A DNA stretch of 64,000 nt from Diacronema lutheri (Eukaryota > Haptophyta > Pavlovophyceae > Pavlovales > Pavlovaceae): assembly GCA_019448385.1 (NCBI GenBank), contig JAGTXO010000009.1:434001-498000 (forward strand). Direction: 5' to 3'. This document shows positions 55,513 to 63,600 of this stretch, piece by piece (within the stretch, counting starts at the first letter, position 1; each line of letters begins with the position of its first letter). A program made the translations under genes and the position numbers. The notes beneath the pieces were generated by a model. The model was not told where the DNA came from. It saw only the letters and a program-made list of their open reading frames with translations, and did no database searches.

Positions 55513-57801
55513 ATGGACGGCACGCGCTCGCACGAGCTTATACGCGCCATCTCGGCGCACGCGCAGCGCAAGCAGCTCGCCTCCGCCGTCGCGGCCTTTG
55601 AGCAGTTGCTGACCGAGGGCCACGCACCGAGCATCTTCGCCTTCTGCTCGCTCATCAACGCGCACTGCGCGTGCGCCGACATGCCCGGCGCGCTGTGCGC
55701 GTGCGAGCGCATGCTCGCCGCGGGCGTGCAGCCCAACGCGGTGGTGCTCACGACACTGATCAAGGGCTACGTGAATGCGGGCGAGACGGAGCGCGCACAC
55801 GCGCTTCTTGACGAGATGACGCGCGAACGCGCCGCGCCGTCGGCGGTCGACGGCGCGCGCCGCTCGATCTGGGCTGCGTGCGAGCGCGTGCGGCCCGACA
55901 CGCGCGCGGTCAACGCGCTGCTGCGCGGCTGCGCGCGCACGGGGCACGCGGCGCTGGCGGCCGCGCTATTCGAGCGCATGACGTCCGAGTGGCACCTCGA
56001 GCCCGACGTGACAACGTACAAGCTCGTGGCCAAGCTGTTGGCGATGGCGCTCGACACGCGCTCGCTGCGCGGGATCGTGCGCAGTCTCGCGCCAGGCGGG
56101 CCCGAGGCGGAGGCGGAGGCGGAGGGCGGCGGAGCGGAGGAGGACGACGACAGCGGTGCCGCCGCGCTCGGCGGACCGGTGTGCATGTTCTGGCGCGAAG
56201 GCGCCAACAGCTGCCCGCGCGGCCGGCTCTGCCGGTTCCGCCATCCTGCGTCAATCCTTCAGCTCGGCGGAGCGGCCGCGCGGCCGTCGCGCGGCGCGCA
56301 GCGCGCGGCGCGCGGCGGCGGCGGCGGCGGCAGTGACGGCGGCGGTGGCGGCGCGCGGCGTACAGAGCCGTCCGCGCCTCCCGACGCAGCCGAGCGGCCC
56401 GAGCTCGACGATGCCGCCGCTGCCTTCTCCGGCCGATGCGCGTTCATCGCGGAACTCAGGCTGCTCTGCGCGCACGCGCACGCGCTGAGCGCCGAGTGGG
56501 CCGAAGCGATGGGGGAGCTCGCGCTCGCCGAGCGGTGGCATGCGCGCGCGGTGCAGGACGCGAAGGCGCGCGAGGCCCTCGCCGTCGGCGCCGACGAGAG
56601 CTGGTATGCACAGCTCGCGCTCGCAGAATTAAAACGCGAGCTTAATCGAGTGGGTGCGTACGCGAGGTCAGGCCTCGCGCGAGCGGCGCGCGGCGCGGGC
56701 GCGGACGGCGACGGCGGCGGCGGTGGCGAGGCCGGCGGGGCGAGCGGCGGCGCGCGCACGCGGCAGCATGGCGGCGTCGCATTCGACGCTGACGTGCGCA
56801 CCGTCCTCGCGCGCACGTTCTTGTTCGACGCGCCGCTGCGCACGCACGCGCCGCGCGCGCGCGCCGCGCGCGCGGGCGACGCGGTCGCGCAGGCGCTCTT
56901 CGACGCGTTGCGCCGCGCCTTTGGGCTCGACCGCGCGTGCCTCCGCGCTGCTGCCGCGCCCGACCGCGCCGCCGCGCGCGCGCAGCAGCGCGCTGAGCTG
57001 CGCTGCTTCGCGGCGCGGTACGCGCGGTGCATCGGCCGGCGGTCGGGCGCGCTGCGGCTGGACGCCGTCTTCGGTCGCGAGGGCGGCGGCGCGGCGAGCG
57101 CGCGGCTGCCGTTCTACGTGGAGGTATGCGCGGGCAACGGCGACTGGGCCGTCGCGCAGGCCGTCGCGACGCGCGGTCGCGCGCTCTGGCTTGCGGCGGA
57201 GTTGCGATTGGACCGCGTCTGGTTGATCGCGTCGAGGGCGCTCACCGCGCGCGCGGCCAATCTCGCGTGCGCGGGCGGCGACTCGCGCGCGCTGCTGGCC
57301 GAGCGCCTGGCGCGCGGCAGCGTCGATCACCTTTTCGTCAACTTCCCGGAACCGCCGCACCACTCAGGCGACGCGGCCGCTGAGTCGGTGGTCGAGTTGC
57401 TCGGTGCGGCCTTCTTTGCGCACGCGCACGCCGCGCTCGCGCCGCCGCCCGCCGCGGGCGTCGCGGGCGCGCGGCCGGCAGGGCGGATCACGATCCTCTC
57501 CGACTCGCGTCCTTACATCCACACGCTCGCACGCACGCTCGGCGCACTCGTCGCGTCGTCCGGCGGCGGCGGCCGGCTCTTCCGCTCGACGCACGAGCTG
57601 CTGCCCGCCGGCGTCGACGGCGCGGGCGAATGGGGTGGCGCGCGCGAGGAGTGCGGCGGCATAACCGTGCACCACGGCGTGCCCGGCCGCGCGCAAGGGC
57701 ACCACGTGCGCGCCGCCTCCTATTTTGATCGCTTCTGGGAGCACGGCCACCACACCGAGCGCTATTTCCTGGACGTGACGCGCGTCGGACCTGAGGCCTG
57801 A
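55513..57801 (+). CDS. PPR / CCCH zinc finger / TrmB-type methyltransferase fusion
   Basis: Single exon, 762 residues. Residues 1-190 contain four to five pentatricopeptide repeats (SIFAFCSLINAHCACADMPG, AVVLTTLIKGYVNAGETERA, DTRAVNALLRGCARTGHAAL, DVTTYKLVAKLLAMALDTRS). Residues 223-243 form a CCCH finger, C-x9-C-x5-C-x3-H (CMFWREGANSC, then PRGRLCRFRH). After a Gly-rich linker and helical segment, residues about 530-760 match the tRNA guanine-N7 methyltransferase fold. Motif I is FYVEVCAGNGDWAVAQAVA, then WLAAELRLDRVWL, and the family signature appears as DHLFVNFPEPPHH (family FPDPWxKxxH). The acidic residue is Glu rather than Asp. Reasonable role: sequence-specific RNA recognition by the PPRs directing methylation in an organelle. 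No clear transit peptide is seen at this ATG, so an upstream exon might exist. Function is inference; the domain order is directly visible. Confidence 0.85.
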   Translation: MDGTRSHELIRAISAHAQRKQLASAVAAFEQLLTEGHAPSIFAFCSLINAHCACADMPGALCACERMLAAGVQPNAVVLTTLIKGYVNAGETERAHALLDEMTRERAAPSAVDGARRSIWAACERVRPDTRAVNALLRGCARTGHAALAAALFERMTSEWHLEPDVTTYKLVAKLLAMALDTRSLRGIVRSLAPGGPEAEAEAEGGGAEEDDDSGAAALGGPVCMFWREGANSCPRGRLCRFRHPASILQLGGAAARPSRGAQRAARGGGGGGSDGGGGGARRTEPSAPPDAAERPELDDAAAAFSGRCAFIAELRLLCAHAHALSAEWAEAMGELALAERWHARAVQDAKAREALAVGADESWYAQLALAELKRELNRVGAYARSGLARAARGAGADGDGGGGGEAGGASGGARTRQHGGVAFDADVRTVLARTFLFDAPLRTHAPRARAARAGDAVAQALFDALRRAFGLDRACLRAAAAPDRAAARAQQRAELRCFAARYARCIGRRSGALRLDAVFGREGGGAASARLPFYVEVCAGNGDWAVAQAVATRGRALWLAAELRLDRVWLIASRALTARAANLACAGGDSRALLAERLARGSVDHLFVNFPEPPHHSGDAAAESVVELLGAAFFAHAHAALAPPPAAGVAGARPAGRITILSDSRPYIHTLARTLGALVASSGGGGRLFRSTHELLPAGVDGAGEWGGAREECGGITVHHGVPGRAQGHHVRAASYFDRFWEHGHHTERYFLDVTRVGPEA

Positions 57802-58442: not shown

Positions 58443-59716
58443 TCACTGCGCCACCTCCTTGGCCTTCTCCGGGTGCTTGCGCATGTGCTCCTCCTCGAAG
58501 ATCTTCCACGCCTTGACCGCGTCCTCGCGGTGCTTGTGCAGGTACGGGTTGGGGTCGTCCGCCTCCATGCTCGCAAACGTGTGGTTCACGTCGCTGTCGC
58601 GACGGGGGCCACCGGGATGGGCGCGAGGGGTGAGGGGTGCGCTGCCGGGCATGCGCGCGCGCGACGCGACGCCACGGGCTACGCGACGGCGCGGAGCGCG
58701 TCAAGCGTTGCGCACCGGTGGTTGGCCTCGTCGGCGTACATGCACTTGAGCGCGTCGACCCACTTCGCGTCGGGCGCGAGGTGCCAGTAGCCCTTCGCAA
58801 TGGCGGGCGCGTCGAGGTGCGCCCACGCGGCGTGCAGCTCGGTGCCCGGGGTCTCGACGTGCGTGATGATGTTGTGGTACGTCTTGCACGCGGTCTGCTC
58901 GAGGTAGCCGACGAAGCGGTGCAGCGCCTTTGGCTTGATCATGTAGACGGCCATGAGGAACGGCGTGAGCCCGACCTGCGCGCCGAGCGCGAGCGTGCGC
59001 GTGAGCCACGACGCCTTGAACATCTTCATGCAGACGAGCAGATGCATCCGCTCGTTCTCCGCCTCCTCGAGCAGCGTGCCGATCCAGCCGTAGTCCTTCT
59101 GCAGCAGGCGGAGCGAGCGGAAGTGGCGGAAGCCGGCCGCGACAAAGCCGGGCACGCCCGCGAACGACTCGAGGATGATCAGCCGCCACTCGATCGAGCG
59201 CGGCGACGGGTTGATCTCCTTGTAGCCCGTGATGAAGTTGAACGGATGGTACAGGCCGTAGTACATGATCGCGTGCATCACGTGATCGGAGAATTCGACC
59301 GGCGTGTGCACGTCCTTGTAGGTCTCGAGCTTGTCCTGCAGCTCCTCGCGCGACCAAATGTGGTTCTGCTGCCGGCCCATCTTGTTCGACACGTCGCCCT
59401 CGGACGTCTCGTACGCGGCCTTGGTGAGGCGCTCGGGCTTTGCGTTGAGCGGGTGCGCGTGCGGCGACAAGCGGAAGTGCTGCGTGCTGACGGTCTCGGG
59501 CGAGTCGGTCTCGCCCTGGCCGGCCGGCGCGCTCGCGAGGGCGCGCGAGCCGCGCGCGAGCGCGCCGAGCATACCGCGCGCACCACGCACGCGCGCCGAC
59601 TGCAGCGCCGGCTGCAGGCGAACGGCGGGCGTCAGCGAGTGCATCCGGACGGCGCACTTGAGCGGCTGCTGCAGCTGGACGGCGGACTTCATGTTGAACG
59701 ACGACCCGAGCATCAT
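58443..59716 (-). CDS. AOX: Mitochondrial alternative oxidase
   Basis: Two exons, 59716-58716 and 58593-58443, joined by a 122-base intron (donor GTGCGC); 383 residues. The start MMLGSSFNMKSAVQLQQP gives a basic presequence; a longer frame from 59797 exists but overlaps upstream repeats. Diiron ligands: Glu in IILESFAGVPGFVAAGFRHF, the ExxH in LLEEAENERMHLLV, Glu of TPGTELHAAW-type helix region, and the last ExxH in MYADEANHRDVNHTF, which spans the splice junction. The C-terminus reads DDPNPYLHKHREDA and then a Lys/Glu helix. The enzyme oxidises ubiquinol and reduces oxygen to water at the inner mitochondrial membrane without pumping protons. The conserved N-terminal regulatory cysteine of plant enzymes is not evident. 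SMC6 ends 302 bases upstream on the same strand. Confidence 0.95.
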
Positions 59717-60018
59717 GGCGGACGCCTGCGGCGAAAACACCGGAGTTGTCCAGTGGACTCGGAGTCCACGACAAGACCGCGAAACTCCGAGGCTCATCAG
59801 CTCATCTCTTCATCAGTCAGAGCCTTTGGAAGCTCTTCAGTCAGAGCCCGCAGAGGAAGCTGCTCGGAGTCTGATGAGCTGACGAACGCACGAGCCGATG
59901 CGACGGGCCCTCGCAGGCCACAAACTCAGCGTTTCCAGTCCCACCGCTTCAGCCCGCAGCGGCCACATGCTGCGCGCGCGCGCCCAGACCGCGCGCCGCG
60001 CCGGGGCCCGGGGCGCGC
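59717..60018. promoter_or_regulatory. AOX upstream region with inverted and direct repeats
   Basis: Between the SMC6 stop and AOX start, both minus strand. It contains a perfect odd palindrome GTGGACTCGGAGTCCAC at 59753-59769, two CAGTCAGAGCC copies (59813 and 59838), and GCTCATCAG (59792) with its complement CTGATGAGC (59871). These are candidate regulatory or hairpin elements; no function is shown. Confidence 0.4.
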
Positions 60019-60629
60019 TCAGTCGGTGCGTGGGTCTGGCATGCGGAAGATGTGGCGCGGCTTCGTGTCCATGTCGAGCATGCTCGACATGTCCTGCGGC
60101 GTGAGGAAGAGGAACTGGCCCGACGGCTGCCGGTCGCACGCGGCAAGGAGGCACTTGATCGCCTGCCGGCGGAACGCGTCGTCCATGAAGACCTGTTTTT
60201 GGCCAACAGTGCGCCCGTCACCCGTCCCGCGCGCAGGTCGCGGGCGCGGCGCGCGGCGCGCGTGAGGGGTGGTGGCGAGCGAGCTCGCGCGCGCGCGGCG
60301 CGGCGCGGCGCGGCGCGGCGAGCTCACGTCAAACTCGTCCATGCAGCGGAAAGGCACGTTGATGAAGTTCCAGAGTGCGATCTGGAAGGCCATAGTCGTG
60401 AACGAGCGCTCGCCGCCGGAGAGCGTCGAGACATTCTGCGTTGTGTTGGCCGCCGCGTCCTGCGCGCTCGTGCGCACCTCGATGGTGAGCATCGAGCGCG
60501 CATCGTCGATTTGGTGGTCGAACTTCAATACGCCGCCCAGGCTGCGCAAGCTCAGCTCGTGGTTGAACGCGGCGGACGTCTCTTCGCCTGCGCGCGCGCG
60601 ACGCGGAGGTATGTGTGTGTGTTTAAGTT

Positions 60630-60660
<31 letters not shown>

Positions 60661-63600
60661 TGGGTGGGGTGGGGGGGAGGGAAGGAAGGGGGGGGGGGGG
60701 GGGGGGGGAAGGGCTTTGCGCGTCAGCGGCAGAAGATCGGCGCGACGCTCGCGGCGCTTGCGCTTGGCGTCGCGCGCACCCATCTTCTCGCGGTCGGCCG
60801 CCCATTGCTTGGCGCGCAGCCTTCGCGCCTTGTGCAGAGCTTCCATGTCGACCGTGACGTTCTCCTTGAGCGTCACCTGCGATGCCAGCCGCTCCTCCGC
60901 CTCGCGGTACGCCGCCTCAAGCTGCGCGATCTGCGCCGCGCTCGGCAGCATGGCCGCGCCGTCGCCGCCCGACGCGCGCGAGCCGCGCCGCCGGCCGGCG
61001 CCGGCGCCGGCGCCGGCCGTGCTGGCGCGAGCGGCGAGAATCTCGCTCCGCCGGGCTTCACGGCGCGTCACCATCTGCTCCAGTTTGCCTGCGCGGTCCG
61101 AACGACGCGCGGCGGCGCGCGCGGCGGTTGGGCGCACGTCGCGCGCGCGCCGCCGCCGCCGCCGCAGCGCGCGCGCGCCGGCGCGGCGCGCGTCGCTGGC
61201 GCGGCGCGCTGCGGTCGTTGCGCCCAACCGCCGCGTGCGCCCAACCGCCGCGGCGCGCTGCGGTCGTTGCACGCACCGACGGTGCAATTTGAAATGTCGG
61301 GCGGCTCGGCGCCCGCGGCGAGCGTGGTGTTGGCCTGGGCGCGCAGCGCGAGGGCCGTGCGTTGCAGCGCGTCAATCTTGGACTGCGAGTCGCCGCGCTG
61401 CCGCTCGAGCTCGGCGAGGAACTTGACATGCGCGTCAAGCGCCTTCCTCCGCTTGGCGAGCAGCTGGTGCGCCGCGTGCGCCATGTCGTTGTCCTCGGCC
61501 GCGCGCGCGACGAGCGTCTCCGACTCGGCGCGCACGTCGTTGAGCTTCGCGGCGAGCGGGCCGATGCGCTGCTCGGCGTCGCGCACCGCCGCCTTGAGCT
61601 GCTCGGCCTGGTCCATCAGCCGCGCGCCCTCCGCTTCCTTCCGCTCCGCCTCGTCGAGCGCGAGCTGCGCCGACTGCTCGTCGAAGCCGCCCTCCTGATT
61701 GACCTCGTCGAGCTCCGACTTTGCACGCGCCTGCTCGGCACGCGCCGCCTTGATCGCGCGCGCGTTCGCCTCCTCGCGCGCGCGGAAGCCGAGGTCGCCC
61801 TCGACGAGCGCGCGCGCGCGCGCACGCTGGTGCTCGAGCTGCGCTGACCGCTCGGCGATCTCGGCGCTGAGGCGCGCGATCTGTTCCGAAGGGTCGACGC
61901 CCGTCTTGCGCTTGTCGCTGCCGGGCGCGGGCGGCGCGGTGACCTCAGTCGCGCCCTTCGCGAAGGCGGAATGACCGCTTTCAACGTAGGCGCGCGCAAC
62001 ATTCGCGCCAGCGCTGCCGTGCTGTGCGGACGTGCACGCCTGCGCCTCGGCGAGCGTGGCGCAGAGCACGAAGCGCTCGACGCCCGCGCGGTCGACGGCG
62101 ACCTGCTGCGCCATCGCGTGCGAGAAGGAGAGCACGTCGAGCATCAGCTTGAAGCGCGAGCGGTCGGGCAGCTTGCTCGGCGGCAGGTCGTACGGCTTCT
62201 CGTTCGAGTCGAACTTCATCACGACGATCGGCGGCGTCCACCCCGCATCCAGCTTGAGTGAGCGGCAGAGCCCGTCGAGCACCGCGCGGTCCTGGTGCGT
62301 CGAGACGACGAAATTGTTGAGCAGCGGCTGCAGTGCGCTCTCCGCAGCTTTGGCCCAACGGTCGTCTGTAACGGTAATGTACAGGCCAAGCGGCCCGGCC
62401 GGCGGCTGCGAGAAGCGGCGCGCGTTCTGCTCGATCGCGTGCAGCAGCCTGGGCATGTCGCGGCCGAAGAGCGCCGCGCGCTGCGCGACGCCCGAGCTCG
62501 ACGCGAGCGTCGCGTGCTGCGCCTTAAGCGCGTGCAGCGCGCGGCTGAGCTCCTCCTCCTCGCGGCGCGCGGCGGCGGCGCGCGCGCCCGATGTGCCCAT
62601 CTCGGTGTCGATCGACTCGGCATCGGCACGCAGCTGCGCAAGGCGCGCGTCCGACGCGTCGAGCCGCGCGCGCAGCTCGGCGCGCCGCGCGTCGCGCCGG
62701 CGCGCCTCGGCCTGCTGCCGCGCGGCGCGGCCCGCCTCATCGCGCGCGGCGCGCTCGCGGATCTCGCGCGCGTCCTGCCGCGCCTTGAGCGCGCGCGCCT
62801 CCGCGCCCTCCGCCTTCTGCTTGGCCTGCTGCCGCTCGCGCTCGGCGCGCGCCTTGTCGCCCGCGAGGGCTTGAATGCGCGCGTCGTACACGCCGACCTG
62901 CCCCTCGAACGCGTTCGTCTTCGCGCGCGCCGCCTCGGCCGCGGCGGCGGCGTCGGCGAGCGCGTCGCGCAGCGCCTGCTGCTTGGTCGCGGCCGCGTCG
63001 AGCGCGCTTGCATGGCCCTCCATGCTCGCGCGCGCGTCGTCGGCGACGCGCTCCGCGTCGGCCGCGCGCTTGCACGCCGCCATGCAGCGCAGCGAGACGA
63101 TCTCGTCGTCGATCTTCTGTAGCTCGGTCGCGGCATCCCATGCGGCCTTCTTGGTCTGCATGTCCTTCTCGAGCGCAGGCAGGCTCGCTTCGAACCGCGC
63201 GATCTCGTCCTCCATCCTGCCCACGTCCGAGTCGACCTGCCGCTCAGCGCGGTGGCGCGGCGGCGCGGCGGCGCGCAACGGACGCGCGCGTGCGCGGCTT
63301 GCGGTGAGGCGGCTGCTTGCGCGCGGCGCGCGCGCGCGTGCGGCGGCTCGGCGCGCGGCCGCGCCCGGCGGATGCGCGCGCGCGCGGCGCGCGCCTGCAG
63401 AAGATAGCGCTTGGTCGCGTTGAGGCCCGTCGCCTCCATAAAGAATTCGTAGCGAACGCGGTCGTCGGTCGACGCGAGGAAGCGGCGCGCCTTCTCCTGC
63501 GTGAGCACGACGCACGGGTTGGAGACCTGGATGTTGAAGTGGTCGCACAGCTCGCCCATCTGCGACGTGCGCTCGATCACCACCGTGCCGTCCGCCGCGC

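Follow-up and report, generated by a model that had tools for sequence, protein, structure and literature searches.

An uninterrupted reading frame of the haptophyte Diacronema lutheri joins PPR repeats, a CCCH finger and a TrmB-like methyltransferase domain, which raises the question of what such a protein acts on and whether it still acts as an enzyme. The gene occupies positions 55513..57801 of the window (the whole analysed stretch of 64,000 nucleotides) and codes for 762 amino acids in a single open frame; all its parts located below lie on the plus strand. The PPR tract (residues 5-192, 55525..56088) consists of about five repeats and matches PPR_2 with an E value of 2.3e-19. The finger, C224-x9-C234-x5-C240-x3-H244 (56182..56244), was located by its pattern. 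A mainly helical middle region (residues 307-521, 56431..57075) without the GGKRxW motif separates it from the TrmB-like domain (TGM, Methyltransf_4; residues 531-757, 57103..57783). PF02390 matches this domain with 35.1 bits at a cut-off of 24, and the top match of its fold is E. coli TrmB.

When the complete protein was used as the query, only two relatives were found, the search words being drawn from the first 500 residues with the methyltransferase part unused. They are P0001 (749 aa), from Pavlovales sp. CCMP2436, and P0002 (761 aa), whose JGI record stands on a contig of 7,725 bases; both carry all three parts and show 53-54% identity over 99-100% of the length. Identical columns across the three proteins make up 59 of 110 in PPR repeats 1-3 and 66 of 114 in the methyltransferase core. 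Since the whole domain order is present in both relatives, we consider the locus to be one conserved gene, and the three-part fusion proposed in the original prediction is confirmed. Separate PPR and methyltransferase genes could share a frame by chance and be merged by the gene model, given that the window has 67-79% GC and many long chance frames. However, the order shared by two relatives along practically their entire length and the presence of both a PPR domain and PF02390 in the records of 70 out of 79 proteins retrieved with another family member, P0004, make such an artefact extremely improbable and already close to refuted. The intronless structure is normal for this organism, as 45% of D. 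lutheri coding sequences are single-exon (PMC8379373).

Three other frames surround the gene. A plus-strand frame at 53762-55297 matches PRMT_C weakly, with 24.3 bits at a cut-off of 27, and contains a long Glu-Ala dipeptide repeat; it may code for a protein arginine methyltransferase. Directly downstream, on the opposite strand, lies an alternative oxidase gene (58682-59797, AOX, 194.5 bits). It is followed by a minus-strand piece of an SMC-family gene (60022-61287; SMC_N, E 1.6e-4, 21.6 bits, below the cut-off of 40).

The D. lutheri protein is a member of the PPR-TGM subfamily and lies in a branch that bears a finger. The subfamily was defined from 22 proteins, including Emiliania huxleyi EOD30717 (Manna and Barth, 2013; PMC4029402). 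Its type member, PtcE of Dictyostelium, has the same layout as the 762-aa protein: a PPR tract followed by a C-terminal TrmB-like domain, probably of chlamydial type. The five or so repeats fall within the range of approximately 3-7 motifs described for the subfamily, and the TGM domain stands at the C-terminus of the same protein. Manna and Barth proposed a chlamydial origin of the TGM domain and predicted tRNA m7G46 activity for the whole subfamily (PMC4029402). They also marked a CCCH finger in four of the 22 proteins, all of them chlorophyte, so the three-part fusion had already been published. The Ostreococcus, Bathycoccus and Micromonas proteins combine PPR, CCCH and TGM just as the 762-aa protein does, and most chlorophyte species with a fingered protein hold a finger-free copy as well, like D. 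lutheri (PMC4029402). Several copies per alga are common to the subfamily and D. lutheri.

The architecture is thus known, while the finger, marked only in chlorophytes in PMC4029402, is now found in a haptophyte as well. Both PPR-TGM classes are named in a 2026 review (PMC12787238); among the papers listed on PPR and TrmB from 2014 onwards, no other treats the family, judging by titles and abstract openings. The main text of PMC4029402 contains no use of “catalytic”, “active site” or “aspart-”. What is new here is the replacement of the TrmB loop throughout the sampled family, the near-frozen PPR code and a clade with a TD code that holds the 762-aa protein.

These features were counted in 88 aligned rows. 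Searching with the methyltransferase part of P0004 brought in 79 proteins (P0004 included), to which we added P0001-P0003, P0005-P0007, the 762-aa protein and its paralogues L009 and L010; a search with the methyltransferase region of L010 had given five relatives. Among the 85 database proteins, 10 list PF02390 only, without a PPR domain. The rows were picked up by shared words in a region that takes in motif IV, and relatives retaining an intact loop could be missing or too few in this sample. Column counts of SAM motif I, E563, Asp664 and the C-terminal motif took 84 of the 88 rows, leaving out P0044, P0055, P0073 and P0080, which have no motif I match. For L010, every count used a translation that starts at the preceding stop rather than at its ATG. 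Viral contigs were scanned too and held no relative.

The main departure from TrmB concerns the loop FPDPW..RHxxxR, characteristic of bacterial TrmB and eukaryotic Trm8 (METTL1). In the 762-aa protein, which adds PPR and CCCH modules to the enzyme, this loop is replaced by FVNFPEPPHHSG (residues 608-619, 57334..57369), where Glu613 takes the position of TrmB Asp144 and the RHxxxR patch is missing. The same replacement, [NM]-x-P-[EQ]-P-[PA], is found in all 88 rows. The residue at the Asp144 place is Glu in 86 of them and Gln in two, and RHxxxR is present in none. The stretch of 13 residues past motif IV contains on average 1.8 Lys, Arg or His residues, as compared to 6-8 in six TrmB/Trm8 stretches. 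The original prediction had pointed at the Asp-to-Glu change as a reason to doubt activity. The residue is indeed Glu; the idea of a private defect had to be dropped, since Glu occupies this place almost family-wide and also in two bacterial TrmB proteins (L015 and L016, titled Bacteroidetes and Chlorobiota), where the remaining loop is intact (FPEPLPKKKHEKRR). A stronger warning sign than this substitution, and one that the original prediction did not mention, is the loss of the whole RHxxxR tRNA-binding loop.

The rest of the pocket is well preserved. SAM motif I, VEVCAGNGDW (residues 536-545, 57118..57147), is of the chlamydial TrmB ELCSGNGDW type. Its residues E537, G541, G543 and W545 are kept in 84 of 84 aligned rows and E563 in 83. 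Asp664 (57502..57504), taken as the equivalent of E. coli TrmB Asp180 by means of a T/S-D motif, is likewise invariant (84/84). In the C-terminal motif SYFDRFW (residues 736-742, 57718..57738) Ser736 and Asp739 stand at the places of TrmB Thr217 and Glu220; Ser and Asp are each found there in 80 of 84 rows. Alanine substitution of R26, D144, H151, R154, R155, D180, T217 or E220 reduces E. coli TrmB activity to less than 10%, and R155 matters in tRNA binding (PMC10130221).

A scan with PPR-TGM motifs returned 96 stretches, including six bacterial loci, which were thus picked by the family's own motifs. Four of the bacterial loci are of chlamydial type (three are titled chlamydiae and the fourth groups with one of these). 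They have ELCSGNGDW or E[LI]CSGNGEW together with S[YW]F.[RK]LW, as in PPR-TGM proteins, and retain [IV]NFPDPWPKxRHAK[HN]R. The motifs in common lend some support to a TGM domain closest to those of chlamydiae. If the domain came from chlamydiae, the loop was therefore lost after the transfer.

The TrmB equivalog model TIGR00091 (cut-off 112.65 bits) gives the 762-aa protein 12.5 bits, P0001 25.7 and P0004 62.2. Taken alone this cut-off is a weak test, because a chlamydial TrmB with an intact loop (L011, 98.7 bits) and the Trm8-type protein L002 also fall short of it.

L002 (112.6 bits, just below the cut-off, with FPDPHFKKRNVRRR) is one of two D. lutheri proteins of the ordinary kind found in the genome, for which 43,492,796 bases in 103 contigs were searched (43,502,671 bp, 103 contigs and 73.25% GC according to PMC8379373). 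The other, L001, scores 140 bits as a canonical TrmB and has an N-terminus that looks hydrophobic by eye. PPR-TGM proteins are therefore not needed to explain tRNA m7G46 in D. lutheri, and since the genome retains both a canonical TrmB and a Trm8, the target of the 762-aa protein is probably not tRNA G46. Two finger-free PPR-TGM paralogues were located: L003/L009 (C74:94188-97595), whose motif IV reads NHPQPP, with Gln, and which sits on a very long branch, and L004/L010 (C79:135182-138565), which keeps the usual PPR code. In a further protein, L005 (C80:157742-161188; Methyltransf_4, 41.8 bits), the frame reads FPNPYPKPAHLPRRW, a third kind of TrmB-like motif. The 37 PPR_2 matches in the genome form about 12 gene-sized clusters. 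PPR-TGM genes account for three of them, which is much for a single subfamily.

Code residues at PPR positions 5 and 35 set the base, ND reading U, NS reading C, SN reading A and TD reading G, with TN modelled as reading A (PMC4837458). In the 762-aa protein repeats 1-4 have IS, CN, TD and ND, and repeat 5 has Lys at position 5. Gapped pairs were omitted from the code counts (10 of the 88 rows in repeat 3, nine in repeat 4 and 14 each in repeats 1 and 2). TN is the pair of repeat 3 in 71 of 78 rows, and ND that of repeat 4 in 74 of 79. Their four columns rank 4, 6, 15 and 17 for low entropy among the 120 columns of the repeat region; those of repeat 2 rank 44 and 57. T, N and D are common residues at PPR code positions in general, and a tract with only four to five repeats could not specify a target by itself.

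Thr80, position 5 of repeat 3 (55750..55752), follows the family rule (T in 78 of the 81 rows that have a residue there). Asp129 at position 35 (55897..55899) departs from it: Asn occupies this place in 73 of the 79 rows without a gap here, and Asp belongs exclusively to the clade of the 762-aa protein. TD in repeat 3 is found in four rows, the 762-aa protein, P0001, P0002 and P0073, which make up exactly one clade. A variable insertion is present within repeat 3 (residues 106-124, 55828..55884; 6 of 27 columns identical across the three fingered proteins). As P0073 has no insertion there, the Asp at position 35 does not stem from misalignment caused by the insertion. At position 5 of repeat 5, 71 of 81 rows have Glu; Lys is confined to the three fingered proteins, and P0073 has Arg. 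Presumably, repeat 3 changed from an A-type (TN) to a G-type (TD) code within this branch, which seems to have altered its predicted RNA target.

The clade was recovered using methyltransferase columns only, with an SH-aLRT support of 98 in a quick tree and 99/100 in a careful tree limited to 45 of the quick tree's 94 rows; these values come with warnings: the letter make-up of the 762-aa protein is unusual, P0073 has a long branch, and the bootstrap had not converged. Three of its four members are the only rows out of 88 with a CCCH pattern, and no other fingered protein was retrieved among these rows. A six-frame genome search with the finger and the methyltransferase joined in one query matched the finger part in the 762-aa gene alone. 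The expectation of a CCCH finger was borne out as regards the pattern; the Pfam score remains under the cut-off in the 762-aa protein and exceeds it in P0001 and P0002. The finger folds with low confidence when modelled alone (pLDDT 66), and in the full model it sits in a low-confidence stretch. Across the three proteins 28 of 38 columns of the finger block are identical, as compared to 2 of 33 and 8 of 56 in the flanking linkers. Being conserved between drifting linkers, the finger is under selection.

The fourth member, P0073 (eukprot g1408.t1), lacks a finger and has foreign repeats (DIGYLPDGTPMNRAGN...) seemingly inside its methyltransferase domain. Because the gene model of P0073 seems to be broken, its lack of a finger suggests only weakly that the code change preceded the gain of the finger. 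GGKRxW or its near forms occur in 56 of the 88 rows, in 55 of these not more than 400 residues upstream of motif IV, and in 0.9% of shuffled sequences. The motif is absent from 32 rows, namely all four clade members and 28 others, which weakens its loss as a mark of the branch. That the finger took the place of GGKRxW is only a thought.

An organelle location, which the original prediction had also suggested, finds no support in the 762-aa protein. This protein and its two closest relatives have just 7, 12 and 9 residues, respectively, ahead of the conserved Glu-Leu in the first repeat. A targeting peptide would apparently hardly fit there, and the protein may be presumed to be nuclear or cytosolic. 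The 2026 review assigns most PPR-TGM proteins to mitochondria (PMC12787238), while Manna and Barth found a mitochondrial prediction for only a few of them (PMC4029402). C-terminal tails of at least 15 aa follow the C-terminal motif in 52 of the 80 rows where it was found, and 14 of these tails contain at least 30% Lys and Arg. We made no use of them as a nuclear signal, the 762-aa protein having no tail.

What, then, could the protein do? The fusion with its conserved order, the fold, the loss of the loop, the code counts and the clade together point to a SAM-dependent RNA methyltransferase aimed by its PPR and CCCH modules at an RNA other than tRNA G46. This proposal, which retains the guided methyltransferase of the original prediction, is the likeliest of those considered, and we put it at about even. 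The PPR repeats, aided by the finger, would grip a short stretch of single-stranded RNA so that one of its bases reaches a TrmB-type pocket with an intact SAM side, where it would be methylated, probably at guanine N7. The tRNA-specific loop would no longer be needed. Since the H151/R154/R155 loop is gone in all rows, it is most likely the PPR/CCCH modules, and no longer the shape of a tRNA, that decide on the substrate. We infer SAM binding, activity, RNA binding and the target from sequence.

The main rival of such guided methylation is a pseudo-enzyme whose TrmB-like domain binds SAM, or just RNA, without methyl transfer, the protein serving as an RNA-binding or ribosome-assembly factor. 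By analogy with E. coli TrmB, in which Ala at D144, R154 or R155 abolishes multiple turnover (PMC10130221), the universal replacement of D144 by Glu or Gln and the universal loss of RHxxxR could mean a dead enzyme. The D144A mutant still sustains slow methylation in single turnover (PMC10130221). However, near-invariance of motif I, E563, the D180 equivalent, Ser/Thr at 217 and Asp/Glu at 220 is beyond the needs of a dead pocket, and two bacterial TrmB proteins have Glu in an otherwise intact loop; we therefore find a pseudo-enzyme rather unlikely. We see still less reason to expect an ordinary tRNA m7G46 methyltransferase whose PPR and CCCH modules merely help to grip tRNA. It would agree with the motifs shared with chlamydial-type TrmB and with the subfamily-wide prediction in PMC4029402, but that prediction meets a family without the RHxxxR loop in any row and, in the branch studied here, a different PPR code. 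L001 and L002 are moreover available in the genome for that job.

For the family as a whole we tentatively picture PPR-TGM proteins as widespread protist PPR-guided methyltransferases which have lost the loop and kept a near-frozen code, although this broader scenario is somewhat doubtful. One branch would have switched its code from A to G in repeat 3 and gained a finger, resulting in a second, retargeted enzyme beside the finger-free paralogues. The question of the target is directly testable, since this small algal genome holds three PPR-TGM paralogues and a switched code in one of the three. If active, these proteins would constitute a natural base methylase aimed by an RNA reader with a known code, the near-frozen code predicting a part of the target, and the standing prediction of tRNA m7G46 activity for PPR-TGM proteins would be corrected.
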